32,042 nt of DNA, taken from Actinomycetes bacterium. GTDB lineage: Bacteria; Actinomycetota; Acidimicrobiia; Acidimicrobiales; Palsa-688. Shown piece by piece: positions 4,006-23,347 of this stretch (the first letter of the stretch is position 1; each line of letters starts with the position of its first letter). The DNA lies in assembly GCA_021808785.1 (NCBI GenBank), contig JAKBAX010000014.1, positions 1-32,042 of the forward strand. Direction: 5' to 3'. The position numbers and the translations under genes were made by a program. The notes below the pieces were generated by a model. The model worked only from the letters and a program-made list of their open reading frames with translations. It was not told the origin of the DNA and made no database searches.

Positions 4006-4007
4006 TG
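4003..4007 (+). promoter_or_regulatory. TGATG stop-start overlap, probable translational coupling
   Basis: The stop TGA (4003-4005) of the Tat-signal gene shares one base with the ATG (4005-4007) of the next gene. No Shine-Dalgarno stands at a normal distance before this ATG. The arrangement is typical of termination-reinitiation, which would tie production of the second protein to the first. Confidence 0.6.
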
Positions 4008-7020: not shown

Positions 7021-8250
7021 ATGGCCGCCTGCAAGTGCCGCTTATGTGGAGCGGAGCTGACCCACACCTTTGTCGACCTCGGCATGTCCCCGCTGTGCGA
7101 GAGCTACGTACCCGCGGACCGACTCGACGAGTCGGAGACCTTCTACCCGCTGCATGTGCGTCAGTGCCCGTCCTGTCTGCTGGTACAGCTCCCGGCCTAC
7201 GTGCGCGGCGAGGACATCTTCTCGGACTACGCCTACTTCTCCTCCTACTCGGACTCGTGGGTCGCACATGCCAGGCGCTACGCGCACGCCATGATCGACG
7301 AGCTCCGGCTCGGCCCGGGCAGTCTGGTGACGGAGGTCGCGAGCAACGACGGCTACCTCCTCCAGCACTTCCTGGCCCGGGGCGTTCCGGTGCTCGGGGT
7401 CGAGCCGGCCGGCAACGTCGCCGAGGCCGCCCGGTCCAAGGGTGTGCCGACGGTGGTCGAGTTCCTCGGCAGGGAGACAGGTAAGGCCATAGCGGCCCGC
7501 TACGGACAGGCCGACCTGGTCGCAGCCAACAACGTCTTCGCCCATGTCCCAGATATTGTCGACTTCGCCGAGGGGCTCGAGTGCCTGGTGAAGCCTGGCG
7601 GTCTGGTCACGCTCGAGTTCCCCCACCTGCTCCAGCTGATAGCGCAGACCCAGTACGACACGATCTACCACGAGCACTACTCCTATCTGTCCCTGCTCAC
7701 TGCGGCGAGAGCGCTGCAGGCGGGAGGTCTGATGGTGGTCGACGTCGACGAACTGACCACCCACGGGGGATCCCTGAGGGTCCACGCCCGGCCGGAGGAG
7801 GAGGCCGGCGAGCCGAGCACCGCGGTCAAGGCGCTCCTCGACCGTGAAGAGGCAGCAGGGCTGCACACCCTGCACGGCCACGCCGGCTTCGCCTCGGAGG
7901 TCCTCCGGGTGAAGAGCGATCTGCTCCGCTTCCTGATAGAGGCCGCCGGTCATGGTCGCACGGTCGCGGCCTACGGCGCCCCCGGGAAGGGCAACACCCT
8001 CCTCAACCACTGCGGCATCAGGTCCGATCTCGTCTCCTACACCGTCGACCGCAGCCCGGTGAAGCAGGGCAAGTACCTCCCGGGAACCCACATCCCGATC
8101 TACGGGCCGGAGAAGCTGGCCGAGACCGAGCCCGACTACGTCTTGGTGCTGCCATGGAACCTCCGGGAAGAGATCAGTACCCAGCTGGATTATGTGCGTT
8201 CCTGGGGGGCCAGGCTGGTCTTCCCCATACCGTCCCTGGACATCGTCTGA
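7021..8250 (+). CDS. NDP-sugar C-methyltransferase (class I SAM-dependent, zinc-binding N-terminus)
   Basis: A 409-residue three-part enzyme of the TcaB9/TylC3/NovU type. The N-terminal zinc-binding domain has CKCRLC (Cys 4, 6, 9) and CPSC. The SAM-binding domain carries EVASNDGYLL and GVEPAGN. The catalytic segment YHEHYSY is at 216-222, where the Tyr/His/Glu residues used for C-methylation in TcaB9 are found. The C-terminal domain has AYGAPGKGNTLLN and the ending VLPWNLREE. The family adds a methyl to C-3 (or C-5) of 4-keto-6-deoxy nucleotide sugars to make branched sugars. GGAGG lies three bases before ATG 7021. The cytidylyltransferase-like gene follows after 14 bases, so the two probably serve one nucleotide-sugar pathway. 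Which carbon is methylated cannot be told. Confidence 0.9.
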   Translation: MAACKCRLCGAELTHTFVDLGMSPLCESYVPADRLDESETFYPLHVRQCPSCLLVQLPAYVRGEDIFSDYAYFSSYSDSWVAHARRYAHAMIDELRLGPGSLVTEVASNDGYLLQHFLARGVPVLGVEPAGNVAEAARSKGVPTVVEFLGRETGKAIAARYGQADLVAANNVFAHVPDIVDFAEGLECLVKPGGLVTLEFPHLLQLIAQTQYDTIYHEHYSYLSLLTAARALQAGGLMVVDVDELTTHGGSLRVHARPEEEAGEPSTAVKALLDREEAAGLHTLHGHAGFASEVLRVKSDLLRFLIEAAGHGRTVAAYGAPGKGNTLLNHCGIRSDLVSYTVDRSPVKQGKYLPGTHIPIYGPEKLAETEPDYVLVLPWNLREEISTQLDYVRSWGARLVFPIPSLDIV

Positions 8251-8264: not shown

Positions 8265-9074
8265 ATGAAGGTGGTCCTCTTCTGCGGTGGCCTCGGGATG
8301 CGAATGCGCGATGGGGTGACCACCGGGCCCAAGCCGATGGCCCTGGTCGGAGAACGTCCTCTCTTGTGGCACGTGATGCGCTACTACGCCTATTACGGGC
8401 ACACGGATTTCGTCCTCTGCCTCGGATACGGGGCGTCCGCCGTGAAGGACTTCTTTCTCAACTACGACGAGACCCGCTCCAACGATTTCGTGCTCCAGAA
8501 CGGAGCCCGGGATCTCGAGCTGTTCAACACCGACATCTCGGACTGGACGATCACCTTCGTGGACACCGGTCTCAACTCACCGATTGGCGAGAGACTGCGC
8601 CGGGTGCGCCGTTTCGTCGAGAACGAGCCCGTGTTCATGGCCAACTACGCCGACGTCCTGACCGATGCCCCGCTCCCGGACATGATCGAGCACTTCGAAT
8701 CGAGCGGCGCCATCGCCAGCCTCCTGGCCGTCCCTCCGCAGTCGTCGCACCATGCTGTCGACATCGCCGACGACGGCGTGATCACCAGGGTGACGCCGAT
8801 GCGGGACCTGCGCCACTGGGAGAACGGTGGCTATTTCATTCTGCGCCCTGACATATTCCAAGAGCTCCGTCCCGACGAGGACCTGGTGGAGGACGCCCTG
8901 GTCCGCCTCGTCCGTAGAGGTGAGGTCCTCGCCTACCCGTACAAGGGATACTGGTCGCCGGCGGACACGGTCAAGGAGAGGGCCCAGCTCGACGAGGCCT
9001 ACCATCGCGCCAGCTGCCCGTGGATGATCTGGGACCCGGAACGTTCCGGCAACGCCTCCCAGCAAAGCGGATGA
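8265..9074 (+). CDS. rfbF: Glucose-1-phosphate cytidylyltransferase-like nucleotidyltransferase
   Basis: A 269-residue sugar-nucleotide pyrophosphorylase closest in pattern to RfbF, which makes CDP-glucose from CTP and glucose-1-phosphate, the entry to CDP-dideoxy and CDP-branched sugars. It has the N-terminal GGLGMRM...PKPM signature, WHVMRYY, FVLCLGYGA, ITFVDTGLNSPIGERLRRV (the TLVDTG..S.TGGRLKRV segment of RfbF), NGGYFIL, and GYWSPADT near the C-terminus. In the family's GGxGTR loop the Thr is Met here, and YADVLTD stands where RfbF has YGDGVAD, so base or sugar specificity may differ. The start has AAGGAG eight bases upstream. It lies between the C-methyltransferase gene and the dioxygenase gene, which it overlaps by four bases (ATGA). 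No CDP-glucose 4,6-dehydratase is in the window. Confidence 0.85.
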   Translation: MKVVLFCGGLGMRMRDGVTTGPKPMALVGERPLLWHVMRYYAYYGHTDFVLCLGYGASAVKDFFLNYDETRSNDFVLQNGARDLELFNTDISDWTITFVDTGLNSPIGERLRRVRRFVENEPVFMANYADVLTDAPLPDMIEHFESSGAIASLLAVPPQSSHHAVDIADDGVITRVTPMRDLRHWENGGYFILRPDIFQELRPDEDLVEDALVRLVRRGEVLAYPYKGYWSPADTVKERAQLDEAYHRASCPWMIWDPERSGNASQQSG

Positions 9075-10054
9075 CCATCCTCGTCGACCCCGATGTGGCG
9101 CCCGAGGACCTGCTCGCAACACTCTACGCAGGCAACCTCGTCGTCTTGACCCGGCTGCCCGGGGTCTGGCGACTGGTCGAGTACTCCCGGCAGAAGATAT
9201 CCAGGCTGTTCCACCCGCTCGAGCCCGAGACCGCCCATGAACAGGTCGACAAGTCCGCCATGGCGGCGATGCTCGCGGCATGGAAGCCCGGATTCATACA
9301 CTCCCCCGACTCCCACCGATTCGTGCGCGACATAATACGGCAGGCCGGCTTCGCGGCCGAGGGCACCCACTACGATTCTCCAAGGCCCCGCACCTCCTTC
9401 CCGCTGACCCACCTGACCACCGGCATCGCCTACGCCTTCCCGTGGCATCGCGACACCTGGTACAGCGCTCCCGCTCAGCAGATCAACTGGTGGCTGCCGA
9501 TCTATCCGATTCGAGCAGACAACAGCATGGGATTCCATCCTTCGGCATTTGATCAGGCGGTCCGCAACAACTCGGACCGCTTCGACTACTACGAGAACAA
9601 CCGGGCCCGGCTCACCACCGCCCTGCAGGTAGACCAAGAGCACCAGGTCCGCCCGGCAGCCACAGAGTTGGGGCCGGTGCCCGAGTTGGCCGTGTTGCCG
9701 AGTCCAGGATCGATCCTGCTCTTCTCCGGGGCCCAGTTGCACCGGTCCATCCCCAACACGTCGGGCCGGGCCCGCTTCAGCGTCGACTTCCGGACTGTCG
9801 ACGTGGCCGATGTCAAGGGGGGTCGCGGCGCGCCGCTATTGGACGTGGCGTGTACCGGCACGTCTATCCGCGACTTCCTGCGGGTCGCCGATGGAGAACC
9901 CTTCGACGAGCAGACGGTGGTGGATCTGTTCGGTCGGCCGCCCGACGGCTCCAGCCTGGTGTTCCGGCCCCCACCTATGGACGGGAGTCAACTTCCGGTT
10001 ACCGCCGGCTGCGGAGTCCACCTCGGTGTCGAGAAGAGGACCGTCGAGAGGTAG
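9071..10054 (+). CDS. PhyH-like Fe(II)/2-oxoglutarate dioxygenase
   Basis: A 327-residue protein of the phytanoyl-CoA dioxygenase-like superfamily. The metal ligands are readable: HRD at 126-128 (His and Asp of the HxD motif in AFPWHRDTWY) and a distal His at 224 (SGAQLHRSIPN), followed by Arg 233/235 (GRARFSVDFR) for 2-oxoglutarate. Such enzymes hydroxylate or otherwise oxidise small molecules, lipids or sugars. The four-base ATGA overlap with the cytidylyltransferase gene points to the same modified-sugar pathway, but the substrate is unknown. Its 3' end runs 67 bases into the convergent pyruvyl transferase gene. The tail after ~280 (VDLFGRPPDGSS onwards) looks less conserved. Confidence 0.8.
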   Translation: MTILVDPDVAPEDLLATLYAGNLVVLTRLPGVWRLVEYSRQKISRLFHPLEPETAHEQVDKSAMAAMLAAWKPGFIHSPDSHRFVRDIIRQAGFAAEGTHYDSPRPRTSFPLTHLTTGIAYAFPWHRDTWYSAPAQQINWWLPIYPIRADNSMGFHPSAFDQAVRNNSDRFDYYENNRARLTTALQVDQEHQVRPAATELGPVPELAVLPSPGSILLFSGAQLHRSIPNTSGRARFSVDFRTVDVADVKGGRGAPLLDVACTGTSIRDFLRVADGEPFDEQTVVDLFGRPPDGSSLVFRPPPMDGSQLPVTAGCGVHLGVEKRTVER

Positions 10055-11262
10055 TCGAACTGCTGGTCGAGCCGAGCTCCGATGACCAGGTTGCGCCGGG
10101 CCAGGTCGCTGGCTATCTCGTCCCGCTGCTGCACCAACTCGTCGAACTGTGAGGTCAAGAGCCCGAAGTCCACCGAGCATGCCGATTGCGTGAACCTACC
10201 CAGGCCCATCTCGTCCATGAGCACGGAGAACTTGTCGGAGTAGCCGATGGATATGGTCGGCTTCGAGGACCGGAGCGCCGATACCACGTTGTGGTAGCGG
10301 GTCCCGACGAAGAGGCCCACCTCCGCCAGCCCCGCCATCAGATCGGCGGGACTGGTCAGCGGATCGGCCACGAGCAGGCCCGGATCGAGGCCCGGTCGGG
10401 CCCGCCGGACATCATTGACCAGGCGGGTCACGACCGGGACATCGATGCTCTCGTCGCTGTCGCCCCAGAAGATTCGCACCGGATGACCGGTATCGAGGAG
10501 CCATATGACGAAGCTCGTCATGGTATCGACGTAATGGGCGTGCAGGGCGCTGGCCCGCCGCCGGTCGTCGTTACCACCGAAGTAGGCCATCAGCCCCACT
10601 CCGACTCTCTCCGGCTGAGCGGTGTCTCGAGCCCGGACCGGCTGACCGAAGACCAGATCCGGGTAGACCGGATCCTCCGACACGTCGACGCCTCTGGCCC
10701 GCATGGCCTCCCACGACTGGAGATCCCGGTACGAGCGGTACGCCGCTCGGCGAGCCCCGGCGTTTTGAACCCAGCGGGTTAGGCGCTGCTTCATCGAGTT
10801 CGCCCCGACGCTGACGAGGGCCACCTTCGTCCCGGACACCCGTCCGGCCAGGCACAGCGCGCAGATGGCGAGTGGGTAGCCGGACGCCCGCATGGGAAGG
10901 GTCGACTCGAGAGCTCCGGCCCCGGGGACCACGACGATCTCGTGCCGGCGGACCCATGCCGCGATGCGGACCAGGGCCACCGCTTTGCCGAGCACCTTCA
11001 ATCCGGCCGCGGCCGGGAGCGGGACCCGGCCCTCGTACTTCTTGTACCACAGCATCGCTTGAGCGGGAATCCGGTAGACGTCCTCGACGCGCTCCGGTCC
11101 CATGCACATGGCATCGACGACCGCGTCCGGATGCGACCGCCGTAAGTAGTCGAGGACCACCTCGAAAGCCGCGTCATTACCCAGATTGCCTGAACCGACG
11201 AAGCCGAACAGACCGACGCGCGGCCTGACCCGATTGACCGACAAGCTCGCAGAGGTCGTCAT
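9988..11262 (-). CDS. Polysaccharide pyruvyl transferase family protein
   Basis: A 424-residue protein of the CsaB/WcaK/EpsO-like pyruvyl transferase family, which puts a ketal-linked pyruvate from phosphoenolpyruvate on a sugar and gives the polymer negative charge. The N-terminal nucleotide-binding-like motif is VGLFGFVGSGNLGNDA. The C-terminal half has GLFVGTRYHNVVSALRSSKP and ISIGYSDKFSVLMDEMGL, the usual (R)xHxxxxA and Y.xK signature. ATG 11262 is preferred because GGGGAG lies just upstream; the frame stays open for 50 more codons but those look non-coding. It is the only minus-strand gene inside the exopolysaccharide locus, divergent from the GDP-mannose dehydrogenase gene and convergent with the dioxygenase gene. 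Confidence 0.85.
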   Translation of the reverse strand: MTTSASLSVNRVRPRVGLFGFVGSGNLGNDAAFEVVLDYLRRSHPDAVVDAMCMGPERVEDVYRIPAQAMLWYKKYEGRVPLPAAAGLKVLGKAVALVRIAAWVRRHEIVVVPGAGALESTLPMRASGYPLAICALCLAGRVSGTKVALVSVGANSMKQRLTRWVQNAGARRAAYRSYRDLQSWEAMRARGVDVSEDPVYPDLVFGQPVRARDTAQPERVGVGLMAYFGGNDDRRRASALHAHYVDTMTSFVIWLLDTGHPVRIFWGDSDESIDVPVVTRLVNDVRRARPGLDPGLLVADPLTSPADLMAGLAEVGLFVGTRYHNVVSALRSSKPTISIGYSDKFSVLMDEMGLGRFTQSACSVDFGLLTSQFDELVQQRDEIASDLARRNLVIGARLDQQFDYLSTVLFSTPRWTPQPAVTGS

Positions 11263-11453
11263 ATCTCCCCGGGGTCTCTCCAGACACCGACGTGCACCGG
11301 ATTTTCCGCCATCTTGAGAGACCGCTCCCGTCGACCTGATACCGCACGGCGGGTGGTCGTTCCAGAGCCCGACCGGATACCGACGTATCTGATGGAGGGT
11401 CGACGTACTCAACCTTGTGTGCCGGTACAGGTCTACTGGAGGTGAACGGACAG

Positions 11454-12773
11454 ATGCGGGTAGCGGTCTTCGGACTCGGCTACGTGGGCGCCGTGACAGC
11501 AGCCTGTCTGGCCGACAATGGTCACCAGGTCTGGGGTGTCGACGTCGACCCCGGAAAGGTGGGCACCATCCGGTCCGGGCGGAGCCCCGTCGCCGAACCG
11601 GGCCTCCATGAGTTGATCGAGCAGGTCGTCTCGGCCGGGAACCTCAGGGCTACGACAGACCCGGCAGAGGCATTGATGGGGGCGGACGCGTCGATCCTCT
11701 GCGTCGGCACCCCCTCGACGATCGAGGGCGGTACGGACCTGACGAGCATCCACAGCGTCATCTCGGACCTGGCCCGAGGTCTGGAAGTGGTCGCCCCGGC
11801 CGCCGGCTGCTTCCATGCGGTGGTGATCCGCTCGACTGTGCCTCCGGGCACCGTGGAGGAGTGTGGCCGCGGCCTCGACGGGCGGCTCCTCGAGCAGGGA
11901 ATCAGGACCGGTGTGGCCATGTGCCCAGAGTTCCTTCGGGAGGGCACCGGTATCGCCGACTTCTACCATCCTCCCTACACCGTGATCGGCTCGACCGACG
12001 CCGACACTCTTCGGAGCGTGCGGGAGCTCTTCTGCTTCATCGACGCACCCGTGAAGGAGGTCGAACCCCGCACTGCGGAGGCGCTCAAATACGCATGCAA
12101 CGCCTACCACGCCACCAAGGTGTCCTTCGCCAATGAAGTAGGTCGTATCTTCAGGCGACTGGGTGTCGATACTCGTGAAGTAATGAACCTTTTCTGCGAG
12201 GACACCCAGCTCAACATCTCGGCTCGCTATCTCCGCCCCGGCTTCTCCTTCGGCGGATCGTGCCTTCCCAAGGACCTCCGGTCCCTCTTGCACCTGGCGC
12301 GTATGGAGAGCGTGGACCTGCCACAGCTCTCGGGCACCCTGACCACGAACCGGCTGACCACCACTGACGTGGTCGAGCGGGTGCTGCGGGCTCCGGGACG
12401 GACCGTTGCGCTGATCGGGCTGAGCTTCAAGTCCGACAGTGACGACCTTCGCGAGAGCCCCTATGTCGACCTGGCCGAGACCCTCCTCGGGAAGGGGTAC
12501 GAGGTGAGGATCTTCGATCCGATCGTGAATCCGGCCACCCTCATCGGAGCCAACCGGACCTACGTCGAATCGAGGCTCCCGCACCTTCGGGCCCTGTTCA
12601 AGAAGACCCTGTCCGACGCGCTCGAAGACAGTGACGTGGTCATCATCAGCTACGCGTCGGACGACATCGAACACGCCCTCCTCGGCGCGCCGCCCAGACG
12701 GATCATCGACCTCGACGGCCGGCTGGGCTCGGAGGTCGAGGCGCTGAGCGGATACGAGGGGGTCTCGTGGTGA
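11454..12773 (+). CDS. algD: GDP-mannose 6-dehydrogenase-like (AlgD type) nucleotide-sugar dehydrogenase
   Basis: A 439-residue NAD-dependent dehydrogenase of the UDP-glucose/GDP-mannose family. It follows Pseudomonas AlgD more closely than UDP-glucose dehydrogenases: start MRVAVFGLGYVGAV, SPVAEPGL, CVGTPS, CPEFLREGT, KVSFANEVGRI, YLRPGFSFGGSCLPKD (catalytic Cys 270), LIGLSFKSDSDDLRESP, and an end in GVSW where AlgD ends GICW. AlgD oxidises GDP-mannose to GDP-mannuronate in two NAD-dependent steps in the cytoplasm. The Leu in SCLPKD (usually Phe in UDP-glucose dehydrogenases) supports the GDP-mannose assignment, but UDP-glucose is not excluded. ATG 11454 has GGAGGTG nine bases upstream. The next gene overlaps by a GTGA. 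Confidence 0.87.
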   Translation: MRVAVFGLGYVGAVTAACLADNGHQVWGVDVDPGKVGTIRSGRSPVAEPGLHELIEQVVSAGNLRATTDPAEALMGADASILCVGTPSTIEGGTDLTSIHSVISDLARGLEVVAPAAGCFHAVVIRSTVPPGTVEECGRGLDGRLLEQGIRTGVAMCPEFLREGTGIADFYHPPYTVIGSTDADTLRSVRELFCFIDAPVKEVEPRTAEALKYACNAYHATKVSFANEVGRIFRRLGVDTREVMNLFCEDTQLNISARYLRPGFSFGGSCLPKDLRSLLHLARMESVDLPQLSGTLTTNRLTTTDVVERVLRAPGRTVALIGLSFKSDSDDLRESPYVDLAETLLGKGYEVRIFDPIVNPATLIGANRTYVESRLPHLRALFKKTLSDALEDSDVVIISYASDDIEHALLGAPPRRIIDLDGRLGSEVEALSGYEGVSW

Positions 12774-14011
12774 AGCAGGTGCGGAGAGCATCTCGACCCC
12801 GCGTCTTGATCCTTGTCCAGAACCTCCCGGTGCCGTTCGATCGGCGCGTCTGGCTCGAGTGCCAGAGCCTCCGGAAGGCCGGATTCGACGTGGCCGTGGT
12901 ATGCCCCAAGGGCAAGGGTGATCCGTCCTTTGCGAGTCTCGACGGAGTCGATCTGTACAAGTACCGCCCCTTCGTCGCCAAGCAGAGCAAAGCCGCCTTC
13001 GTCGCCGAGTATCTGTACTCCTTCATCGCCACGTTCTGGCTGGCTGCCAGAGCGTCCCGCCATGGCCGCTTCGCGGTGATCCAGAGCTGCAATCCGCCCG
13101 ACATCCTCTGGCCCATCGGCTGGATATTCGGTCGAATCCACGGAGCCCGCTTCGTCTTCGACCACCACGATCTCTGCCCGGAGCTGTACGAGTCGCGCTT
13201 CCCGGAAGGCTCCGCCTGGCTGCATCGGGCGCTGGTCCTCTTCGAGCGGTGCACCGTGCAGACGGCCGACCGGGTGATATCCACCAACGCCACCTATCGA
13301 TCCATCGTCATCGCCCGCCATGGAATCGACCCGGAGCGGGTCACCGTCGTACGTACAGGTCCGGATCCCGACCGCTTGCGAGCGATCGACCCGGACCCCT
13401 CGTTGAAGGCCCGATTCCGCTACCTGGTGGCCTATATCGGTGTCATGGGGCCACAGGACGGGGTGGACCTGGTGTTGCGCGTCGCCCAGGTGGTCACCCA
13501 GCAGCTGGGCCGTGACGACGTCAAGTTCGTCCTCATGGGTTCGGGCGACTGCTTCGAGGAGCTGATCAGGCTCCGAGCGTCGCTCGGCGTGGAGGGCTGT
13601 GTCGAGATGCTGGGCCGGGTACCCGACAGCACGGTAGCGGCGGTCCTGTCCACTGCCGATGTGGGCATCTCACCCGATCCGAAGAACCCGCTCAATGACG
13701 CCTCGACGATGAACAAGACCATGGAGTACATGGCCTATGGCCTGCCTGTGGTGGCTTTCGATCTCCGAGAGACCAGGGTCTCGGCCGGTTCTGCGGCCGT
13801 GTATGCCACTCCGAACGACATCGGCGAACTGGCCCGGCTCCTCGTCGATCTCCTCGACGACGAGCCTCGGCGCCGGGAAATGGGAGCGACTGGACGGGCC
13901 AGGGTGGTCAGTCTCCTGGCCTGGAGCCACCAGGCTCCTCACTACGTCGAGGTGTACCGGTCACTGGTCCCGGGCTCCGCCGGCCGGGAGACCGAGCCGG
14001 TCCCCGCCTGA
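12770..14011 (+). CDS. GT4 family glycosyltransferase
   Basis: A 413-residue GT-B retaining glycosyltransferase of family 4. The acceptor-side domain begins with PRVLILVQNLPVPFDRRVW and has FDHHDLCPELYE at mid-length. The donor-side domain has YIGVMGPQDGVD, FVLMGSGDC, LGRVPDS and DPKNPLNDASTMNKTMEYMAYGLPVVA, which contains the conserved Lys-Glu region that binds the nucleotide diphosphate. It would add one sugar to the lipid-linked repeat unit on the inner face of the membrane. GTG 12770 forms a four-base GTGA overlap with the dehydrogenase gene and has AGGGGG seven bases upstream; GTG 12767 in the same frame is an alternative. The next gene begins one base after its stop. Confidence 0.88.
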   Translation: MKQVRRASRPRVLILVQNLPVPFDRRVWLECQSLRKAGFDVAVVCPKGKGDPSFASLDGVDLYKYRPFVAKQSKAAFVAEYLYSFIATFWLAARASRHGRFAVIQSCNPPDILWPIGWIFGRIHGARFVFDHHDLCPELYESRFPEGSAWLHRALVLFERCTVQTADRVISTNATYRSIVIARHGIDPERVTVVRTGPDPDRLRAIDPDPSLKARFRYLVAYIGVMGPQDGVDLVLRVAQVVTQQLGRDDVKFVLMGSGDCFEELIRLRASLGVEGCVEMLGRVPDSTVAAVLSTADVGISPDPKNPLNDASTMNKTMEYMAYGLPVVAFDLRETRVSAGSAAVYATPNDIGELARLLVDLLDDEPRRREMGATGRARVVSLLAWSHQAPHYVEVYRSLVPGSAGRETEPVPA

Positions 14012-14012
14012 C

Positions 14013-15917
14013 ATGTGTGGTGTAGCAGGCTCTTACCAGGTGGCTGACGGCGAAGAGGCGGTGCGGCGCATGAGTGCCGCCCTCGAGCACCGCGGCCCTG
14101 ACGACTCGGGTGTCTACTCGCTCGTGAACGACCACCTTGCGGTCCATCTCGGACACCGCCGACTGTCGATAATCGATGTGGATCACGGTCACCAGCCGTA
14201 CGTCAAGCACGGTCTGGCTCTCTCTTACAACGGGGAGCTCTACAACTACCGCGAGCTCCGGGCGGAGCTGGCCGGGCGGGGCGCGACCTTTATTACGGGG
14301 TCCGACACCGAGGTGGTGCTCGAGGCGTGGCGGGCGTGGGGCCCTGCCGGACTGTCCCGCTTTCGCGGCATGTTCGCGTTTGCCATCTTCGATGATGCCT
14401 CCGGCCGCCTCCACCTGGTGAGGGACCCGCTGGGCATCAAGCCTCTGCACTTCATGCGCCGCCACGGCGGCGTCGTGTTCGCGTCCGAGCTGAAAGCCCT
14501 GCTCGAGGTCTATGGCCATGAGCTCGAGATGGATGCCGGCGCCATGGTCGCCTCACTTCTCTACTACTGGGTCCCGGACAATCGCTGCTCCATCCTCGGG
14601 GTGGAGAAGCTCCAACCGGGCACCTGGTTGGAGCTTCGCCCGGACGGGACCGAGCGAAACACGCGGTACTGGGATCCGACCCGGGTGGCGGCCGACGCCG
14701 CCATGGGACCGCCGGCCGACCTCCGAGAAGTCATCGCCGAGTCGGTCGAGGCGCACCTGGTCGCCGACGTGCCGATCTCGAGCTTCCTCTCGGGTGGCTT
14801 GGACTCGAGCATCATTACCGTGCTGGCCAAGAAGGCGATGGGCCGTCTCGATGCCTATACCATCCGCTTCCGGCCCGAGGACAATCGGCTGGAGGCCATG
14901 CCCGACGACGCGCTCTATGCGGCCAAAGTCGCCCGAGGCTTCGGGATCGACCTCCACGAGATCGAGATCACGCCGGACATCGTTTCGCTCCTGCCCAGGA
15001 TGATCGCCATACTCGATGAGCCCATTGGCGATGCCGCCGCGATCAACACGCTGCTGATGTGCGAGGCCGCCCGGGATGCCGGTATCAAGGTCATCCTCTC
15101 CGGAATGGGCGCGGACGAGCTCTTCGGGGGTTACCGCAAACACATAGCCTGCGGGCTGGCAGCCAGGTACCAGCGCATCCCGGCACCGGGACGGCGCGCC
15201 GTTCGGGCGACGGTGGGTCGCCTACCCGTCGCCGCCGCCGGCCGAGGCCTCCGCTACTCGAGATGGGCCAAGCGGTTCCTCACGATGGCCGATCTGCCCG
15301 AGGAGGCGGCCTTTCGTCGCAGCTACAGCCTCTACGACCGGGACCAGCTGGCGGCGCTGGTCGGCCCCGATATGGAACGCCACGTCGACCAGCTGGTGGA
15401 CGAGCACGCCGCCCTGTACTGGGGATCGAAGGTCGACGACCCGGTCCACCGGATGTGCCTGACCGACTCCCGGTACTTCCTGCCGGGGCTGAACCTGACC
15501 TACACCGACCGGGCCAGCATGGCCGCGTCCACCGAGGTGCGGGTACCCTTCGTGGACCCCCGGGTATTCGAGGCTGCGTTCTCGCTCCCCGGCGGCGCCA
15601 AGGTCACGGCCCGGCAGGGAAAGGTCGCCCTCAAGGAGGCAGCCCGGGCGTGGCTTCCCGACGAGATCGTGTCGCGCCCCAAGGCCTCGTTCTCGGCCCC
15701 ATTACGAGCCTGGATAGACCGGGACCTGCGCGAGCTGGTCGATGACGTCCTCGTGCACGGCGAACTGATCTCCTGCGGCTTTCTCGACGGAAATCAGGTA
15801 CTGGCCCTCATAGACGACGAACGCCAGGGCCGCCAGGATCGTTCGAAGCAGATCTGGCAGTTGCTCACTCTCGAGATGTGGTACCGCCGGTGCCGCTCGG
15901 CCGGCGTGGCCCTCTGA
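14013..15917 (+). CDS. asnB: AsnB-type glutamine-dependent amidotransferase
   Basis: A 634-residue protein with both asparagine-synthetase domains. The class II glutaminase begins MCGVAG, so Cys 2 is the nucleophile after Met removal, and has HRGPDDSG, HRRLSIID and YNGELYN. The synthetase domain has the ATP loop SGGLDSS (260-266), GMGADELFGGY, and TYTDRASMAASTEVRVPF near the C-terminus. Homologues inside polysaccharide loci (for example WbpS of Pseudomonas O-antigen clusters) are thought to amidate uronic acids rather than make asparagine. With the AlgD-like dehydrogenase two genes upstream, a uronamide product is the leading idea, but plain asparagine synthesis remains possible. The start has no clear Shine-Dalgarno and lies one base after the previous stop, so coupling is likely. 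Confidence 0.9.
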   Translation: MCGVAGSYQVADGEEAVRRMSAALEHRGPDDSGVYSLVNDHLAVHLGHRRLSIIDVDHGHQPYVKHGLALSYNGELYNYRELRAELAGRGATFITGSDTEVVLEAWRAWGPAGLSRFRGMFAFAIFDDASGRLHLVRDPLGIKPLHFMRRHGGVVFASELKALLEVYGHELEMDAGAMVASLLYYWVPDNRCSILGVEKLQPGTWLELRPDGTERNTRYWDPTRVAADAAMGPPADLREVIAESVEAHLVADVPISSFLSGGLDSSIITVLAKKAMGRLDAYTIRFRPEDNRLEAMPDDALYAAKVARGFGIDLHEIEITPDIVSLLPRMIAILDEPIGDAAAINTLLMCEAARDAGIKVILSGMGADELFGGYRKHIACGLAARYQRIPAPGRRAVRATVGRLPVAAAGRGLRYSRWAKRFLTMADLPEEAAFRRSYSLYDRDQLAALVGPDMERHVDQLVDEHAALYWGSKVDDPVHRMCLTDSRYFLPGLNLTYTDRASMAASTEVRVPFVDPRVFEAAFSLPGGAKVTARQGKVALKEAARAWLPDEIVSRPKASFSAPLRAWIDRDLRELVDDVLVHGELISCGFLDGNQVLALIDDERQGRQDRSKQIWQLLTLEMWYRRCRSAGVAL

Positions 15918-15936
15918 TCACCGACGGGAAGGAAGA

Positions 15937-18117
15937 ATGCAGCAAGTCGCGCAGAACTACAGGTCAGGCCAGCTGGCGGTCCTCGACGTGCCCCTGCCCA
16001 GCTGCCGGGCGGGCGGTCTGCTGGTCAGAACCCTCTACTCGCTGATCTCCACCGGCACCGAGCTGATGAAGGTCAACGAGTCGAAGATGTCCCTGCTCGG
16101 CAAGGCTCGCTCGCGCCCCGAACAGGTCGCCAAGGTCCTCGAAACGGCAGCCCAGCAGGGCCCGGTGAGCGCCTACCGGAAGGCCATCAACCGCCTGGAT
16201 TCCTACACACCACTCGGCTATTCACTGGCGGGTGTCGTGATCGAGGTGGGGCGGGGTGCCGAGGAGTTCTCGGTCGGGCAGGTAGTTGCCTGTGCCGGCA
16301 ACGAATTCGCCCTCCACGCCGAGGTCAACTGGGTGCCTCGGAATCTGTGCGTGCCCGTGCCCGACGGCGTGCCGGCGACTGCGGCCGCCTTCTCGACGGT
16401 CGGAGCCATCGCCATGCAGGGCCTCCGGCAGGCGGGGCCCCAGCTGGGCGACACGGCCTGTGTCATCGGCCTGGGTCTGGTCGGTCAACTGCTCGTCCAG
16501 CTCCTCGTAGCGGCAGGCATCCGAGTCGTCGGGCTGGACGTGGTACCGGAACGCTGCTCACTGGCCGAGGCCGCCGGCGCACTGGTCGCCGCCGCGCCCG
16601 ACAGTGAGGGGCTGCGGCAGGTGGAGGGGCGACTGGCGGGCATCTCGGCCGGTCGGGGAGCCGATCAGGTCTTTCTCGTCGCTGGAGGCTCAGACTCCTC
16701 ACCCGTGCAACTCGCGGCCCACCTGGCCCGCGACCGGGCCACCATCGTCGACATCGGCAAGTGCAAGCTCGATCTGCCCTGGAACGCCTACTACGAGAAG
16801 GAGCTCGACCTTCGGTTCTCGCGCTCGTACGGCCCCGGCCGCTACGACCCGACCTACGAGATGGACGGGGTCGACTACCCGGCGGGCTATGTCCGCTGGA
16901 CCGAGCGACGCAACATTCACTGCGTCCTCGACCTGATATCGGCCGGGGCGGTCGATCCTGGCCCCCTCGTCTCCGGAGTGTTCCCCATCGGTGAGGCCGA
17001 ATCGGTATATGACCGATTGAGTACCGGATCGCTCCCAGGGGTGGGATTCCTATTCGAATACCCGGCGACAGAGGCGCTGCCCCAGACGCCGCCGCCCGGC
17101 GCGATCCCCCGACGGTCGGCCGAGCCGCGCCCCGGTGCCCAGGTCGCCCGCCACCCCGGTGCGGTCCGGGTGGGATTCATCGGGGCCGGCAACTACGCGT
17201 CATCGATGCTCCTGCCGCACCTGGCACGGATGGAGGGTGTACAGCTGGCGAGAGTGGCGACCAGCCGGTCGCTGTCAGCGGTCAATGCTCAGAGGAAGTT
17301 CGGATTCGAATCGACGAGCACCGACCCCGATGCCGTGATCGGCGACACGGATATCACCGCGGTGTTCGTGGTGACCCGTCACAGCTCACATGCCGATCTG
17401 GTGTGCCGGGCTCTCGAGGCCGGCAAGGAGGTGTTCGTAGAGAAGCCACTGGCCCTGTTCGTGGAAGAGCTGGACCGGATCCTGGCCACGGTGGCGGCCA
17501 CAGGAAACGACCGCCTCATGGTCGGGTTCAACCGCCGCTTTGCTCCGCTCCTCACGACGCTCGCGGCGCAGTTCGGACCGGTACGAGAACCCGGCCTGCT
17601 CCGGTACCTGGTCAGCGCCGGACCCCTCTCCCCGGACTCCTGGTATGCCGACGAGGAGGGCGAGGGCTCGAGATTCGTCGGGGAGGGCGGTCACTTCATA
17701 GATACCGCCAGCTCGATACTGTCATCCGAGCCGGTGGAGGTGTCGGCCGTCGGCACCGGCCACGCCCAAGATGTGCAGGTCGTGGTGCGCTACGCCAACC
17801 AGTCGCTGGCGACCATCTCGTACACCACCGACGGCCATCCGAGGTTCCCCAAGGAGACCCTGGACCTCTCCGTCGGCCGCCGATCGGCCCAGTTGGAGAA
17901 CTTCAGACGGGTCTCGGTGTGGACGGGCCGCCGTCGTCGGGTCAGCCGGGTCTTCACGGCACCGGACAAGGGGCAGAGGGCCGAGCTGCAGGCATTTCTC
18001 CAAGCCGTTCGCACCGGGGAGCCGATGCCGATCAGCCTCGCCAGCCTGGCTTCGACGACACGGGCCACGCTGGCGGTGCCCGCCAGTCTGGCGTCGGGCC
18101 AGCCGGAGAAGGTGTGA
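15937..18117 (+). CDS. Two-domain oxidoreductase: MDR dehydrogenase fused to Gfo/Idh/MocA domain
   Basis: A 726-residue fusion. Residues 1-~375 are a medium-chain dehydrogenase (LISTGTEL, LGYSLAGVVIEVG, CAGNEFALHAE, then the nucleotide-binding stretch CVIGLGLVGQLLVQLL). After a Pro-rich linker (~380-405), residues ~408-726 are a Gfo/Idh/MocA oxidoreductase with VRVGFIGAGNYA (from 410), the EKP motif at 502-504, MVGFNRRFAP and EGGHFIDT. Such two-domain proteins are found in exopolysaccharide and O-antigen loci, commonly next to heparinase II/III-family genes. A role in oxidising or epimerising a nucleotide or lipid-linked sugar is inference. GGAAGG lies upstream of ATG 15937. It overlaps the heparinase gene by four bases (GTGA). 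Confidence 0.9.
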   Translation: MQQVAQNYRSGQLAVLDVPLPSCRAGGLLVRTLYSLISTGTELMKVNESKMSLLGKARSRPEQVAKVLETAAQQGPVSAYRKAINRLDSYTPLGYSLAGVVIEVGRGAEEFSVGQVVACAGNEFALHAEVNWVPRNLCVPVPDGVPATAAAFSTVGAIAMQGLRQAGPQLGDTACVIGLGLVGQLLVQLLVAAGIRVVGLDVVPERCSLAEAAGALVAAAPDSEGLRQVEGRLAGISAGRGADQVFLVAGGSDSSPVQLAAHLARDRATIVDIGKCKLDLPWNAYYEKELDLRFSRSYGPGRYDPTYEMDGVDYPAGYVRWTERRNIHCVLDLISAGAVDPGPLVSGVFPIGEAESVYDRLSTGSLPGVGFLFEYPATEALPQTPPPGAIPRRSAEPRPGAQVARHPGAVRVGFIGAGNYASSMLLPHLARMEGVQLARVATSRSLSAVNAQRKFGFESTSTDPDAVIGDTDITAVFVVTRHSSHADLVCRALEAGKEVFVEKPLALFVEELDRILATVAATGNDRLMVGFNRRFAPLLTTLAAQFGPVREPGLLRYLVSAGPLSPDSWYADEEGEGSRFVGEGGHFIDTASSILSSEPVEVSAVGTGHAQDVQVVVRYANQSLATISYTTDGHPRFPKETLDLSVGRRSAQLENFRRVSVWTGRRRRVSRVFTAPDKGQRAELQAFLQAVRTGEPMPISLASLASTTRATLAVPASLASGQPEKV

Positions 18118-20105
18118 CGCTCCAGGCGTGGGACTGGTACGCCCGCCGGCTGGGCCAGATGTCGGCCGCGGAAGTCGGCCATCGAGTCGAGGACCGCGTC
18201 CGTCAGTGCCTGTGGCGCGGGTATCGGGCTCGGATCGGGCAGAACCTGTCCATCCCCCCGGTTCGATCCCCATCCTTCTGCGCCGCTCTCCCTGCTCCAG
18301 CCGCGGAGATCGTGCCCGGCGAGGCAGTGGCTCCGGTACTCGAAGCGGCGGATGCCCTTCTGCAGGGCAGATGGCAAATCCTGGGGTTAGCGCGCAAGGA
18401 TCTCGAGGACCCGGACTGGTTCTTCGACCCTGTCACCGGGAGGCGGGCCCCCGAGCATCAGTACTGCTTCTCGGTCAACCACCGTTCGGAAGAGGTGACC
18501 GGCAACGTCAAACAGATCTGGGAGCTCTCGCGCGGACAGCATGTCACTGTCTTGGCGCTCGCCTACTCCCTGTCGGGTTCGGACGACTACGCCGAGGCCG
18601 CCGCCGGTCAACTCCGGTCTTGGTGGGTGAACAATCCCTTCCTTTCAGGTATCAACTGGACCAGCGGCATCGAGATGGGCATCAGGTTGATCTCCTGGGC
18701 CTGGTGCCGGCGCCTGCTCGACGGGTGGACCGGCGCGACGTCGCTGTTCGAGGGCAACGACCTGGCCCGGGCCCAGATCGGTTGGCACCAACGATACCTG
18801 GCCGCATTCCGGAGTCGAGGGTCCTCGGCCAACAACCACGTCGTCGCCGAATCGGCCGGTCAACTCATCGGCTGCCTGGCCTTCCCCTGGTTCGACCAGA
18901 GCCCGGCGTGGGAGCAGGACGCCCGTCGTCTGCTCGAACGGGAGCTGGCTGCCAATACCTTTCGGGACGGCCTCAACCGGGAGATGGCCTTCGAGTACCA
19001 CGGCTTCGTAGCCGAGCTGGCCCTGGCCGCGGCGGTGGAAGCGGACCGGGCCGGCCGGCCGTTGAGCGACGGCACCTGGACCATCCTGGCCTCCATCGCG
19101 GATGCCATCGCCTCAACCCTCGACGAGCGCTGCAGGGCGCCCCGCTACGGCGACGGCGACGACGGGTTGGGTTACCTGCTCGGTCCCCCCGGAACCAACC
19201 GGTGGGCGTCGCTCCTCGCCGCCTGCCGAGCGCTCGTCGGTGCACCGGAGTGGTGGCCAGCTGTCGCTCCCGACTCGAGCAGCTCCTTGATGGTCGCGCT
19301 GGGCCGGCCCCACCCAGTTCCCGAGCGCCCGGCAGCCCGTGCTGCGGAGCTTCCCGACGCCGGCGTGTCCATCCTGCGCACGCATCCGGACCAGGGACCG
19401 GAGATTTGGTGCCGGTGCGACGGCGGGCCGCACGGCTACCTGTCCATTGCCGCCCACGCCCATGCTGACGCGCTGTCGGTCGAGGTCCGCCACGGCGGTG
19501 TGGACATCCTGGCCGATCCCGGGACGTACTGCTATCACGGCGACCCGGATTGGCGTCACTATTTTCGCTCCACACTGGCCCACAACACCATAGAGATCGA
19601 CGGCCGCGACCAATCGGACCCGGGCGGGAGCTTCATGTGGACCCGCCATGCCACGACGCGGCGATGCGGTTTGGAGCCGGTCGGTCCCGGATCGACCGGA
19701 TGGGCCGCGGAGCACGACGGCTACCGGACGCGGGACCGTCCGGTCCGCCACCGCCGCCAGGTGGACCTGCACGAGGTCGGGCGGCGGTTACAGATCACCG
19801 ACGACCTGTGGTCGCACGGGTCGCACCTGGCTCGCGTCGCATTCCACCTCGGGCCGGAGGTGACCGCCCACCAGGACGGCACAGCCCTGCTTCTGACCTG
19901 GACCGGGCCCGACGGTTCCCCGGCGCAGGCTCTGCTCGATCTTCCCGTCGAAGCGGCCTGGTCGACCTACTGCGGGTCGAACGAGCCCATACTCGGATGG
20001 TATGCCCCCCGATTCGGTCAGAAGGTTCCGACCACGTCCCTGATCGGCGAATTGGCCTTCAGGGGTCATGTCGAGTTGACCACCACTATCCGGTTCGAAC
20101 CCTGA
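18114..20105 (+). CDS. Heparinase II/III family protein (polysaccharide-lyase fold)
   Basis: A 663-residue protein. The N-terminal part starts like the exopolysaccharide-locus subfamily (WYARRLGQMSAAEVGHRV). An alpha-toroid region follows with NHRSEE, SNNHVVAESAGQLIG and NREMAFEYHGFV, which carry the conserved Asn-His and Tyr of the lyase fold. The C-terminal beta-sandwich has HAHADALS (His 448 and 450), DPGTYCYHGD, YFRSTLAHNTIEIDG and DQSDPGG. The family includes heparinase II and alginate lyases that beta-eliminate uronic acids. No signal peptide is evident, so it may act in the cytoplasm or on nascent glycans, unlike classical secreted lyases. GTG 18114 overlaps the preceding stop (GTGA) with GGAGAAGG just upstream. 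A terminator hairpin starts at its stop codon. Confidence 0.9.
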   Translation: MTLQAWDWYARRLGQMSAAEVGHRVEDRVRQCLWRGYRARIGQNLSIPPVRSPSFCAALPAPAAEIVPGEAVAPVLEAADALLQGRWQILGLARKDLEDPDWFFDPVTGRRAPEHQYCFSVNHRSEEVTGNVKQIWELSRGQHVTVLALAYSLSGSDDYAEAAAGQLRSWWVNNPFLSGINWTSGIEMGIRLISWAWCRRLLDGWTGATSLFEGNDLARAQIGWHQRYLAAFRSRGSSANNHVVAESAGQLIGCLAFPWFDQSPAWEQDARRLLERELAANTFRDGLNREMAFEYHGFVAELALAAAVEADRAGRPLSDGTWTILASIADAIASTLDERCRAPRYGDGDDGLGYLLGPPGTNRWASLLAACRALVGAPEWWPAVAPDSSSSLMVALGRPHPVPERPAARAAELPDAGVSILRTHPDQGPEIWCRCDGGPHGYLSIAAHAHADALSVEVRHGGVDILADPGTYCYHGDPDWRHYFRSTLAHNTIEIDGRDQSDPGGSFMWTRHATTRRCGLEPVGPGSTGWAAEHDGYRTRDRPVRHRRQVDLHEVGRRLQITDDLWSHGSHLARVAFHLGPEVTAHQDGTALLLTWTGPDGSPAQALLDLPVEAAWSTYCGSNEPILGWYAPRFGQKVPTTSLIGELAFRGHVELTTTIRFEP

Positions 20106-20154: not shown

Positions 20155-21582
20155 ATGGAAGAGCGACGGGCCAGCCTGCCCAACCGGGCGGTGGTGACCA
20201 TGGTGGACCAGTGCGTGGCGTCGGGCTCCAACTTCGCGGTGGCCGTGATCATCGCCCGCATCGCCGGGCCGGCCGGGCTCGGTGCGTACTCGCTCGCCTA
20301 CGCCTCCTGGCTGTTCGTCTCGTCCATCCACAGAGCAGTGATCACAGATCCCATGGCCATCCACGGCGACGCCCGAGATCCGGCTGGCGCCCGATCCAAC
20401 CTACGCCATGGATTTGCCGCGGAGGCCTCGCTGGGCATCTGTGCAGGAGCCGTCGTGGCGCTACTCGGTCTCGTGCTCATCGCGCTGCATCAACGAACCT
20501 TCGGCCTGAGCCAGGTCGCCGTGGCGGGATGGATCCCGTTCCTTCTGATACAGGACTACTGGCGCTGGGTGGGGTTCATGCGGGGCCAGCCGGGGAAAGC
20601 CCTGGCCAACGACCTGGTCTTCGACGCCGTCCAAGGTGTCGGCTTCGCCTTCGTGCTGGTCGCCCACATCCACTCCGCCAGCCTGGCCATCGCGGCATGG
20701 GGACTCGGAGCGCTGGCCGGGACGCTCTACGGGGCCTGGCAGTTCCGCGTCGTCCCCGCCCTCCTCGCCGATATGCGGTGGATCCGTCCCAAGTGGTCCA
20801 CAAGTAGGTGGTTGCTGGCGACTTGCATCTCCAGCTGGGGACTCACACAGCTCTACGCGGTGCTCACCGCCGCCATCCTCGGTCCTGTCGGTCTGGGCGG
20901 GCTGAAAGCGGCGCAGGGACTCGTGAGCGGACCGGCCTTCGTGCTGGTCCAGGCGGGGGGCAGTCTCGGATTGCCAGAAGCATCGAGGGCCTATGACGAG
21001 CGCGGGCCGGCCGGTCTGCACCGGGTGACCCGGTTGGTGACCGCAGCCGGTGTGGCCAGTGTGGGGGGAGTCCTGCTCATAGTCGTGTTCTTCGGCCGTC
21101 ACCTCCTTACGGTCCTGTATGGGGCCCGGTTCACCCGCTACGCCCCGGCCGCCGACGTGATCGCGTTGGCCTACCTGCTCACCTCGTTCTCCCTCGGAGC
21201 CATACTCGAGGTGAAGGCGACCAGGCGGGTCAAGCCCCTGTTCACCCTGTCGATACCGGCCGTGATTGCGTCCGTGGTCGCCGTCCTCCTGCTGGCACCG
21301 CCGTTCAGGGTCACCGGAGCTGCGGGCGCCTATGCGATAGGGACCGCCGTCTACGTGGCTGGACTGTTGATCGCGGTACGGCCCTCTCGAACGGCCGAGG
21401 TCGGCGCGGTCCGCTCTGGTGACGGTCCGGGAGATCGACAGCTCGGAGCGGCGCGGCTCCACGGGGGCGAATGGCCGGGGGAGTTGGCCAGGCGCCTGGA
21501 GGTGCTCGACGCGGAGATCCAGCGGGCCCGTTCGAGCCTGGCCATCCGGCTCGGCGAGCAACTCGATATGGCGCAGGAGTAG
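20155..21582 (+). CDS. Wzx-like polysaccharide flippase (MOP superfamily)
   Basis: A 475-residue multi-spanning membrane protein, largely Ala/Val/Leu/Gly-rich with about a dozen hydrophobic segments. The N-terminal segment (GSNFAVAVIIARIAGPAGLGAYSLAYASWLF, split by short loops) is typical of Wzx/polysaccharide transport proteins, as is QLYAVLTAAILGPVGLGGLKAAQGL at mid-length. It would move undecaprenyl-linked repeat units across the membrane. After the last hydrophobic segment (~410) comes a hydrophilic tail of about 65 residues ending in a charged helix (LARRLEVLDAEIQRARSSL) that could form a coiled coil, which is unusual for the family. The ATG has no strong Shine-Dalgarno and lies 49 bases after the heparinase gene, beyond a terminator-like hairpin. 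Confidence 0.82.
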   Translation: MEERRASLPNRAVVTMVDQCVASGSNFAVAVIIARIAGPAGLGAYSLAYASWLFVSSIHRAVITDPMAIHGDARDPAGARSNLRHGFAAEASLGICAGAVVALLGLVLIALHQRTFGLSQVAVAGWIPFLLIQDYWRWVGFMRGQPGKALANDLVFDAVQGVGFAFVLVAHIHSASLAIAAWGLGALAGTLYGAWQFRVVPALLADMRWIRPKWSTSRWLLATCISSWGLTQLYAVLTAAILGPVGLGGLKAAQGLVSGPAFVLVQAGGSLGLPEASRAYDERGPAGLHRVTRLVTAAGVASVGGVLLIVVFFGRHLLTVLYGARFTRYAPAADVIALAYLLTSFSLGAILEVKATRRVKPLFTLSIPAVIASVVAVLLLAPPFRVTGAAGAYAIGTAVYVAGLLIAVRPSRTAEVGAVRSGDGPGDRQLGAARLHGGEWPGELARRLEVLDAEIQRARSSLAIRLGEQLDMAQE

Positions 21583-21811: not shown

Positions 21812-23347
21812 ATGCCCGATACGACCCCTGAGGTGCTCGAACCGCAGCTCGACCTGAGAAGTACGTGGTCCCTGATCTCCTTCCGAAGGCGATGGGTCGC
21901 CTTGCTCGCCACGGTGGGGCTGCTCTCGGCTCTGGGGTATGCCGCGCTCCGGCCGGCCCAGCCCACCGCCGAAGCCCTGGTCCTCCTGCCCCCGACCGCG
22001 TCGTCTACCACCAACCAGCCGACCAGATCCGTGGCCACCCAGGCCGCAATCGCCACGAGCACACCGGTGCTCGCCGCAGCCATAGCGCTGAAGCCGGTGA
22101 CTTCCCCGGTCACAGTCGATGACCTCCGGCGCTCGGTACATGCCAAGGCTCTCACCCAGGACCTTCTCGCGGTGCAGGTGACCGCACCAAGGGCAGCCGA
22201 CGCCGAGCGGCTCGCCAATGCCGTGGCCGCCGCCCTCGTCGCCTACCTCAACGAGCCGGAGTCCTCACCAGGCGGCCGGGCGGCCGCCCAGGTGGGGACC
22301 CAGGCTGCGTCGCTGGCCACGTTGGTGGCGCAGCTCCACAAGCTGGCCGCGGCGGCGGCGAGCAGCGGTGACACGGCCCTCCTCACCTCGATCCGGGACG
22401 AGCTCAGTCAGGTCTCCGGCGAGCTCGATGCTCTCGCCAACAGCATGACCACCCTCGTCACGAGCCCATCGGGAACGGCGTTGGTGCTCCAAAAGGCCAG
22501 AGACGTATCCCGCCCGTCCGACCTCCGAATTGTCGTCATCGCCTTGATCGGTCTGGCCGGCGGCCTGGTTGCAGGGGCGATGGTGGCGTTCGGTCTGAGC
22601 CGACGGGACCGGCGCCTGAGGTTCCGCCGGGACGTGGAATCCACGCTCGGGCTGCCGGTGCTGGCCTCGCTCACAGCCACCGCGTGCAGTTCGCCTACCG
22701 ACTGGGAAGCCGTGCTCACCGGCTCGAATCGTGACTCCATCGACTCATGGAACCTGCGCAACCTGCTGAGCCACGTCCGCCACTCCACCACCTCCCCCGC
22801 GTCCGTCCACGTGATCTCCTTCGTGGAGGATCGGCCGGCTGTCGCGGTCGGACCGGCCTTGGCCGCCTACTCCGCCTCCAGGGGTCTCTCGACATCTCTG
22901 CACACCGGGGGACGACCGGAGCTGGAGGACCTGCGGGCGGCCGCCTCCATGGCCGATCGCACGCGTACCGCCGACCCACGGCTGTCGGTCTCGGGCGGGG
23001 ACCCGGGCGGGGACCGGGAAATCGACGTGGCCGTCGGACTGGTCGGCTCCGATCGGGAAGGCGTGGACGAGGGACGACCGCCCCTCCGCTCCGTGATGGC
23101 GGTATCGAGCGGCTTCGCCACCGCCGACGACGTGGCCCGCATGGCCCTGACCATCGAGGATCGCGGTGGGACGGTACTGGGCCTGGTCATGGTCAACCCG
23201 GATCCGTCCGACCGCACCATGGCCACCCGGAACCGGTGGCGGGACCAGGCGGTGGCGGGTGCACCCCTCGGTCCTGACGCTGACTCCATCGAGCCCATGG
23301 GCCGCTATCAGACCGAGAGGCCGGTCGAATCGGAGAGAACCGCATGA
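21812..23347 (+). CDS. Wzz/Wzc-like chain-length protein with degenerate ATPase domain (copy 1)
   Basis: A 511-residue protein with the layout of a polysaccharide co-polymerase fused to a BY-kinase: first membrane helix ~28-47 (WVALLATVGLLSALGYAAL), an Ala/Thr-rich external helical region (~48-235), second helix ~239-262 (IVVIALIGLAGGLVAGAMV), then a cytoplasmic domain. The external part is shorter than in Wzc. Where the kinase Walker A should be (VHVISFVEDRPAVAVGPALA) there is no GK[ST], and the Asp-rich A' motif is replaced (SLHTGGR), so it should not hydrolyse ATP. The C-terminus lacks a Tyr cluster. It probably acts structurally with the following gene product, with which it overlaps by ATGA. 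Confidence 0.75.
   Translation: MPDTTPEVLEPQLDLRSTWSLISFRRRWVALLATVGLLSALGYAALRPAQPTAEALVLLPPTASSTTNQPTRSVATQAAIATSTPVLAAAIALKPVTSPVTVDDLRRSVHAKALTQDLLAVQVTAPRAADAERLANAVAAALVAYLNEPESSPGGRAAAQVGTQAASLATLVAQLHKLAAAAASSGDTALLTSIRDELSQVSGELDALANSMTTLVTSPSGTALVLQKARDVSRPSDLRIVVIALIGLAGGLVAGAMVAFGLSRRDRRLRFRRDVESTLGLPVLASLTATACSSPTDWEAVLTGSNRDSIDSWNLRNLLSHVRHSTTSPASVHVISFVEDRPAVAVGPALAAYSASRGLSTSLHTGGRPELEDLRAAASMADRTRTADPRLSVSGGDPGGDREIDVAVGLVGSDREGVDEGRPPLRSVMAVSSGFATADDVARMALTIEDRGGTVLGLVMVNPDPSDRTMATRNRWRDQAVAGAPLGPDADSIEPMGRYQTERPVESERTA

Follow-up and report, generated by a model that had tools for sequence, protein, structure and literature searches.

A conserved actinobacterial gene block pairing a bi-domain oxidoreductase with a heparinase-fold protein, a candidate module for uronate tailoring

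What does a heparinase-like protein do when its gene lies within an operon for polysaccharide synthesis? The question is raised by contig JAKBAX010000014.1 of an actinobacterial draft genome (4.9 Mb, 68% GC), which was analyzed over its entire 32-kb length of 32,042 nucleotides (hereafter the window). Five genes form a tight co-directional block on the + strand at 11454-20105, with high third-position GC across all of them. They encode an AlgD-like nucleotide-sugar (GDP-mannose) 6-dehydrogenase (DH, 11454-12773; Pfam UDPG_MGDP_dh N-terminal, central and C-terminal domains), a GT4 glycosyltransferase (12767-14011; Pfam Glyco_trans_1_4/4_4; 7-bp overlap with DH), an AsnB-type class II glutamine amidotransferase presumed to amidate uronates (14013-15917; GATase_7 and Asn_synthase; 1-bp gap after GT4), a bi-domain oxidoreductase in which an MDR-type dehydrogenase is fused to a Gfo/Idh/MocA dehydrogenase (BiOx, 15937-18117; ADH_zinc_N and GFO_IDH_MocA; 19-bp gap after AsnB), and a heparinase II/III-fold protein (Hep, 18114-20105; Hepar_II_III_N, PF16889, and Hepar_II_III_C, PF07940) whose GTG start overlaps the BiOx stop as GTGA. 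A first-pass annotation had described the five genes as overlapping or close together, which holds within these bounds as one co-directional polysaccharide operon, and had read them as a locus for an alginate-related polymer edited by a lyase. The evidence presented here supports that reading in part and favours replacing the editing role with a biosynthetic one, in which the block would be the cytosolic uronate-tailoring module of a Wzx/Wzy-type locus; for the full scheme, including both epimerisation and amidation, we regard this as nearly an even call.

Five genes kept together across actinobacteria

Conservation was counted in the best 80 BiOx loci in GTDB genomes, every one of which is actinobacterial. 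BiOx is accompanied there by Hep in 78 loci, GT4 in 77, AsnB in 76 and the AlgD-like DH in 66. All five genes are present at full length in 62 of the 80 loci, and the order DH-GT4-AsnB-BiOx-Hep is kept in 61 of these 62, either contiguously as in the window (16 loci) or with a stretch containing a Wzz pair between GT4 and AsnB (45 loci, mostly from Streptomyces). BiOx and Hep genes touch or overlap in 51/76 loci. Such a survey had been suggested by the first-pass annotation for the AsnB, oxidoreductase and heparinase trio, and finding the same five-gene order in 61 of 80 actinobacterial loci indicates that the block is not a product of chance; its conservation is thus confirmed. Within the phylum, BiOx at E <= 1e-80 was found in 20 genomes of an even sample of 296 Actinomycetota genomes.

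The heparinase-fold protein and its oxidoreductase partner

The AlphaFold (AF2) model of Hep is confident (pLDDT 89), and over its whole length it resembles two groups of lyase structures, PL12 heparinase III and the PL17 alginate lyases (Z 24-27). A further match is the human enzyme dermatan sulfate epimerase 1 (DS-epimerase; 6HZN), with the toroid plus beta-sandwich fold aligned over 522 residues (Z 21.7, rmsd 4.0) and a C5 chemistry using His/Tyr that Hep may have in common with it; by contrast, it is eukaryotic, uses a chondroitin chain as substrate and has only 15% identity to Hep. DS-epimerase acts on glucuronate (GlcA). With residues counted from codon 18117, N240, H241, Y294, H295, Y473 and H489 of Hep are invariant in 18/18 diverse proteins from Actinobacteria, Proteobacteria, Bacteroidetes and haloarchaea, and H447 and H449 are present in 17 of the 18. 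In the exception, the Hep of the Sphingobium plasmid pl3 (16234-17946 of locus L085), the two histidines are gone and the rest is kept, and this protein may be inactive or altered. H205, Y261, H450 and Y473 have been published as DS-epimerase residues (PMC13308652). H241, Y294, H447 and Y473 of Hep make up a similar set and are plausible counterparts, most of which also occur in lyases. Hep therefore looks like an active enzyme of a C5-proton-abstracting superfamily, and its modelled fold and conserved residues fit a lyase and a C5-epimerase equally, a distinction that the structure search cannot make.

Alternatively, Hep could be a genuine lyase with a part in trimming, editing or clearing polymer, as AlgL has in alginate systems, leaving BiOx and AsnB to make the sugar. 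The best sequence as well as fold matches of Hep are the PL12 and PL17 enzymes, and the catalytic lyase residues, N240, H241, Y294 and H447, are all kept in it. However, no signal peptide or membrane segment was detected in Hep or its close homologues by hydropathy, a hydrophobic N-terminal segment being absent, in agreement with the remark of the first-pass annotation. Hep is thus cytosolic as judged from its sequence and should not reach an exported polymer; in addition, its gene overlaps the oxidoreductase gene and lies near the GT4 gene. Published mutants of a homologous pair, compared here by description, point the same way. In Vibrio vulnificus YJ016, the zinc-binding dehydrogenase VV0357 and the heparinase III-like protein VV0358 were each removed by in-frame deletion, and either deletion abolished the capsule, with complementation; without VV0358 the capsule was lost rather than altered in length (PMC6037467). 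Since no capsule is made without either protein, the pair makes polymer and does not trim it. By analogy with such mutants, the BiOx-Hep pair is probably biosynthetic, polymer editing as proposed in the first-pass annotation is not supported, and a lyase role for Hep seems unlikely.

Which sugar such a pair acts on is suggested by its relatives. In Pseudomonas aeruginosa PA14 (O10/O19 group), also compared by published description, zbdP-hepP is an operon with the same two-gene order and domain make-up and no export signal (PMC5732420), located within the O-antigen cluster (PMC1794565). PA14_23380 of this cluster is a dehydrogenase for UDP-N-acetylmannosaminuronate (UDP-ManNAcA) (PMC9611778, PMC12654532), and the O-antigen contains N-acetyl-L-galactosaminuronate (L-GalNAcA), N-acetylquinovosamine (QuiNAc) and rhamnose (Rha) but no ManNAcA (PMC2997053). 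The combination of ManNAcA genes with an L-GalNAcA polymer amounts to a conversion from D-manno to L-galacto, that is, inversion at both C3 and C5. By contrast with the UDP-ManNAcA genes of PA14, the window has an AlgD-like enzyme together with AsnB.

Gene neighbourhoods elsewhere show a similar association. Outside Actinobacteria, where loci were sampled from plasmids only, divergent BiOx-Hep pairs adjoin wecB/wecC in Sphingobium and Parabacteroides, and Hep without BiOx lies beside wecB on an E. coli plasmid and in Sulfitobacter, Haladaptatus and Haloarcula, with a nucleotide-sugar dehydrogenase as well in 3/4. On a Streptomyces plasmid, BiOx is accompanied by wecB, wecC and asnB but Hep is missing. 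Of the divergent actinobacterial BiOx loci, 11 were informative, and in these WecB is beside 6 and WecC beside another, with Hep near 7 and AsnB near 5-6. WecB occurs within 20 kb in about 10/160 sugar-transferase loci listed for the same phylum (Fisher p about 9e-5 versus 6/11), although this background rate is a hand count among the loci listed and weakens the comparison to that extent. Together with the one cluster whose polymer is solved, these neighbourhoods suggest by analogy that the pair acts downstream of D-manno-uronates.

The C-terminal half of BiOx gives a clue to the C3 step. Both NAD motifs, EKP and H586/D589 are invariant in BiOx, and a fold search with the C-terminal half matches Gfo/Idh sugar dehydrogenases. 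The Gfo/Idh family includes C3-oxidising members; WlbA, for example, oxidises UDP-sugars at C3. Because confidence in the N-terminal half of the BiOx model is low (overall pLDDT 75, pTM 0.48), no claim is built on that half or on the mutual arrangement of the two domains. Given that the Gfo/Idh half belongs to a C3-oxidising family and the Hep fold includes a C5-epimerase, we infer inversion at these two carbons. Where the residue is terminal and its 4-OH free, a lyase would find no leaving group, which would favour epimerisation.

Several observations weigh against this account. Lyases share the fold and residues of Hep and score as high or higher than the epimerase (Z up to 26.8), and heparin degradation has been reported for purified HepP, with clearing of heparin in a plate assay (PMC5732420). 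The biofilm and virulence defects of the PA14 hepP mutant are missing from a zbdP transposon mutant (PMC5732420), a poor fit with both enzymes being needed for one sugar. PA14_23370, of the same cluster, is described as a UDP-GlcNAc 2-epimerase (wbpI) in PMC9611778 but as a UDP-GlcNAc 6-dehydrogenase in PMC12654532. Window-type loci use an AlgD-like DH and not WecB/WecC, so that the transfer from PA14 is made by analogy, and WecB is absent near the Halobellus Hep and in several actinobacterial loci. BiOx also occurs without a local Hep and Hep without BiOx, indicating that the two are separable. Finally, a search of the genome for GDP-mannose pyrophosphorylase/phosphomannose isomerase (GMP/PMI) gave partial C-terminal matches only, which bears on GDP-mannose supply.

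Some occurrences of the two proteins lie on mobile elements. On the conjugative IncY E. coli plasmid pKFu021_1 (5162-14757 of locus L095), a wecB-wecC-polymerase-Hep-GT exopolysaccharide module is located between IS26 copies; other plasmids of E. coli and Enterobacter carry Hep copies with the same match score, and Citrobacter has a similar copy. A distant blastn search of E. coli genomes with the Parabacteroides pair gave no match, though HepP-like proteins are reported in E. coli. On a Thalassospira marina plasmid (13959-16109 of locus L086), BiOx sits in a largely catabolic setting, without Hep or AsnB in the vicinity and with a UDP-GlcNAc 2-epimerase-like gene about 3 kb off. A scan of viral contigs with a diverse alignment found no BiOx relatives, and matches in phages were partial, covering only the Gfo/Idh part.

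Precursor, amide and proposed route

The best PDB relative of DH is the GDP-mannose 6-dehydrogenase 1mfz, matched at full length with 368.6 bits, whereas the best UDP-glucose dehydrogenase scores 236.9 bits over residues 3-374 only. The catalytic cysteine in GGSCLPKD is kept across 67 homologues. By sequence, DH is therefore AlgD-like and of the GDP-mannose 6-dehydrogenase type, as the first-pass annotation had it. The DH family has one further member in the genome, and no UDP-GlcNAc 2-epimerase was found in the genome at E <= 1e-30, as would be expected if the route runs through GDP-mannuronate and not through UDP-ManNAcA. DH could instead make UDP-glucuronate, in which case the module would convert GlcA into an iduronate- or other gluco-derived uronamide with no mannuronate involved. 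The NCBIfam result leaves room for this, because only the general model 'nucleotide sugar dehydrogenase' is over its cut-off and UDP-glucose types are the next matches, and the fold relative DS-epimerase uses GlcA. However, AlgD stands 130 bits above every UDP-glucose enzyme and alone aligns through the C-terminal domain, while homologous pairs elsewhere adjoin ManNAcA genes; a UDP-glucuronate origin thus appears improbable.

AsnB was correctly recognised by the first-pass annotation as an AsnB-type amidotransferase. Its N-terminus, MCGVAG, includes the catalytic Cys2, which is present in 77/78 sequences, and the S260-G-G-L-D-S motif is invariant or nearly so. Could it simply be an ordinary asparagine synthetase that happens to be in the operon, making the polymer acidic but unamidated? 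With 423 bits it exceeds the cut-off of the asparagine synthase model TIGR01536 (267 bits), and no second full-length member of the AsnB family was found in the genome. By contrast, AsnB is a constant neighbour of BiOx, in the 76 loci counted above and in the 5-6 divergent ones, and the position of Glu348 of E. coli AsnB, which we take to serve aspartate activation, is occupied by Met (M365 in the window) in 75/78 sequences and by Ile or Leu in the other 3/78. The E. coli segment TTIRAST is likewise replaced by a conserved GDPAAIN in the homologues (GDAAAIN in the window). Both the changed Glu348 position and the constancy of the neighbours suggest that the substrate is not aspartate. Residue differences of this kind are suggestive and undecisive, as the AsnB family varies at such positions; chance presence of an asparagine synthetase nevertheless seems quite unlikely, and uronate amidation by AsnB is plausible. 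According to work cited in PMC3684757, WbpS-type uronamide synthases are known in P. aeruginosa O6 and E. coli O121. Compared by description, these resemble AsnB as family members encoded within a uronic acid polysaccharide locus and differ in that their substrate is another uronic acid.

A possible route can be set out from these parts, in which the order of the steps, like the inversions and the amide, is inferred. DH would oxidise GDP-mannose to GDP-D-mannuronate, and the neighbouring GT4 would transfer D-mannuronate to a growing lipid-linked repeat unit. BiOx would then invert C3 by oxidation and re-reduction via its NAD-binding domains, and Hep would invert C5 by proton abstraction and return at its Tyr/His site, giving an L-uronate (L-galacturonate if BiOx and Hep both act). 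AsnB would use glutamine-derived ammonia to amidate the carboxylate, and the finished unit would be flipped out and then polymerised. In an overlapping variant, the substrate of BiOx and Hep would be the nucleotide sugar, prior to its use by the transferase, and not a lipid-linked residue. Oxidation of UDP-sugars at C3 by Gfo/Idh enzymes would suit this variant, whereas heparinase-fold enzymes are known to act on glycosidically bound uronates and GT4 genes are constant neighbours; we give it an appreciable though lesser likelihood.

A broader and more speculative proposal can be made. Cytosolic heparinase-fold proteins, often encoded in one operon with BiOx, could supply the enzymes still lacking for L-uronic acid formation in the surface polysaccharides of bacteria and archaea. 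Acting by itself, Hep would invert C5, converting D-ManNAcA to N-acetyl-L-gulosaminuronate (L-GulNAcA) as in the Vibrio polysaccharide (VPS) of V. cholerae; Hep with BiOx would invert C5 and C3, converting D-ManNAcA to L-GalNAcA in PA14 and D-mannuronate (D-ManA) to L-galacturonate (L-GalA) here, with AsnB adding the amide. VPS contains L-GulNAcA, a sugar proposed to arise from D-ManNAcA by C5 inversion, with the enzyme unnamed (PMC3901696); no paper mentioning both VpsJ and heparinase was found in the literature. If the proposal is true, a route to L-GalNAcA and L-GulNAcA would be testable with two purified enzymes. Annotation treats heparinase-like genes of polysaccharide loci as lyase genes, and the PA14 one as encoding a virulence factor that degrades heparin; such annotations would be wrong if the products are biosynthetic epimerases.

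The surrounding locus and its Streptomyces counterpart

Gene content around the block is, by sequence, that of a Wzx/Wzy-type exopolysaccharide locus. Chain initiation is represented by a polyprenyl-phosphate hexose-1-phosphate transferase of WbaP/WcaJ type (1662-3287, - strand; TIGR03025 over cut-off). Downstream of Hep on the + strand lie an oligosaccharide flippase-like protein (Wzx, 20155-21582; Polysacc_synt_3, weak and under cut-off) and two Wzz-like chain-length determinants, the first at 21812-23347 (Wzz, weak and under cut-off) and the second at 23344-25050 (Wzz, over cut-off). No polymerase was recognised on the 32-kb contig. None of the alginate synthase/export set (Alg8, Alg44, AlgE, AlgG) was found among the window genes scanned. 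The alginate-related polymer of the first-pass annotation therefore survives weakly, having at most the GDP-mannuronate precursor in common with alginate, while the place of an alginate synthase is taken by the sugar transferase, the flippase-like protein and the Wzz pair.

The Streptomyces form of the block corresponds to an already known cluster, SCO0381-0401 of S. coelicolor, whose genes are known here by published description. It was published as a bldA-dependent 'deoxysugar' operon (PMC2000904) and is induced in multinucleate mycelium, with SCO0386 given as an asparagine synthetase, SCO0387 as a bi-domain oxidoreductase and SCO0388 as hypothetical (PMC3610822). No product of the cluster is named in either paper. 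The likeness to the window runs through DH, GT, AsnB (SCO0386) and BiOx (SCO0387) to SCO0388 at the Hep position, which would be Hep as judged by position, as in Streptomyces sp. KN37. Four further genes of the window, all on the + strand, are also common to the Streptomyces relatives, namely those for a second GT4 glycosyltransferase (GT4b, 25079-26275; Glyco_trans_1_4; homologue in 57/80 loci), a C-methyltransferase (7021-8250; Methyltransf_13/14), a glucose-1-phosphate cytidylyltransferase-like nucleotidyltransferase (8265-9074; TIGR02623, 202 bits, under its cut-off) and a PIG-L deacetylase (941-1639). The window and most Streptomyces loci thus contain all nine genes, in differing order. 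The Streptomyces clusters differ by the Wzz pair between GT4 and AsnB and by accessory genes downstream, whereas in the window the five genes are contiguous and a pyruvyl transferase gene lies upstream on the other strand. If the proposed route is true, this developmentally controlled Streptomyces cluster gains a predicted chemistry, an L-uronamide.

The polysaccharide pyruvyl transferase (9988-11412, - strand; PF04230) lies just upstream of the block and is preceded by a PhyH-like dioxygenase (to 10054); its presence hints that the polymer carries pyruvate ketals. At 3286-6946, amid the polysaccharide genes, two adjacent secreted-looking proteins have similar segments, the second with DUF4082. 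The edge of the locus at 26268-31465 is marked by genes for a TauE/SafE transporter (-), DNA polymerase III delta (-) and an APH-family kinase (+).

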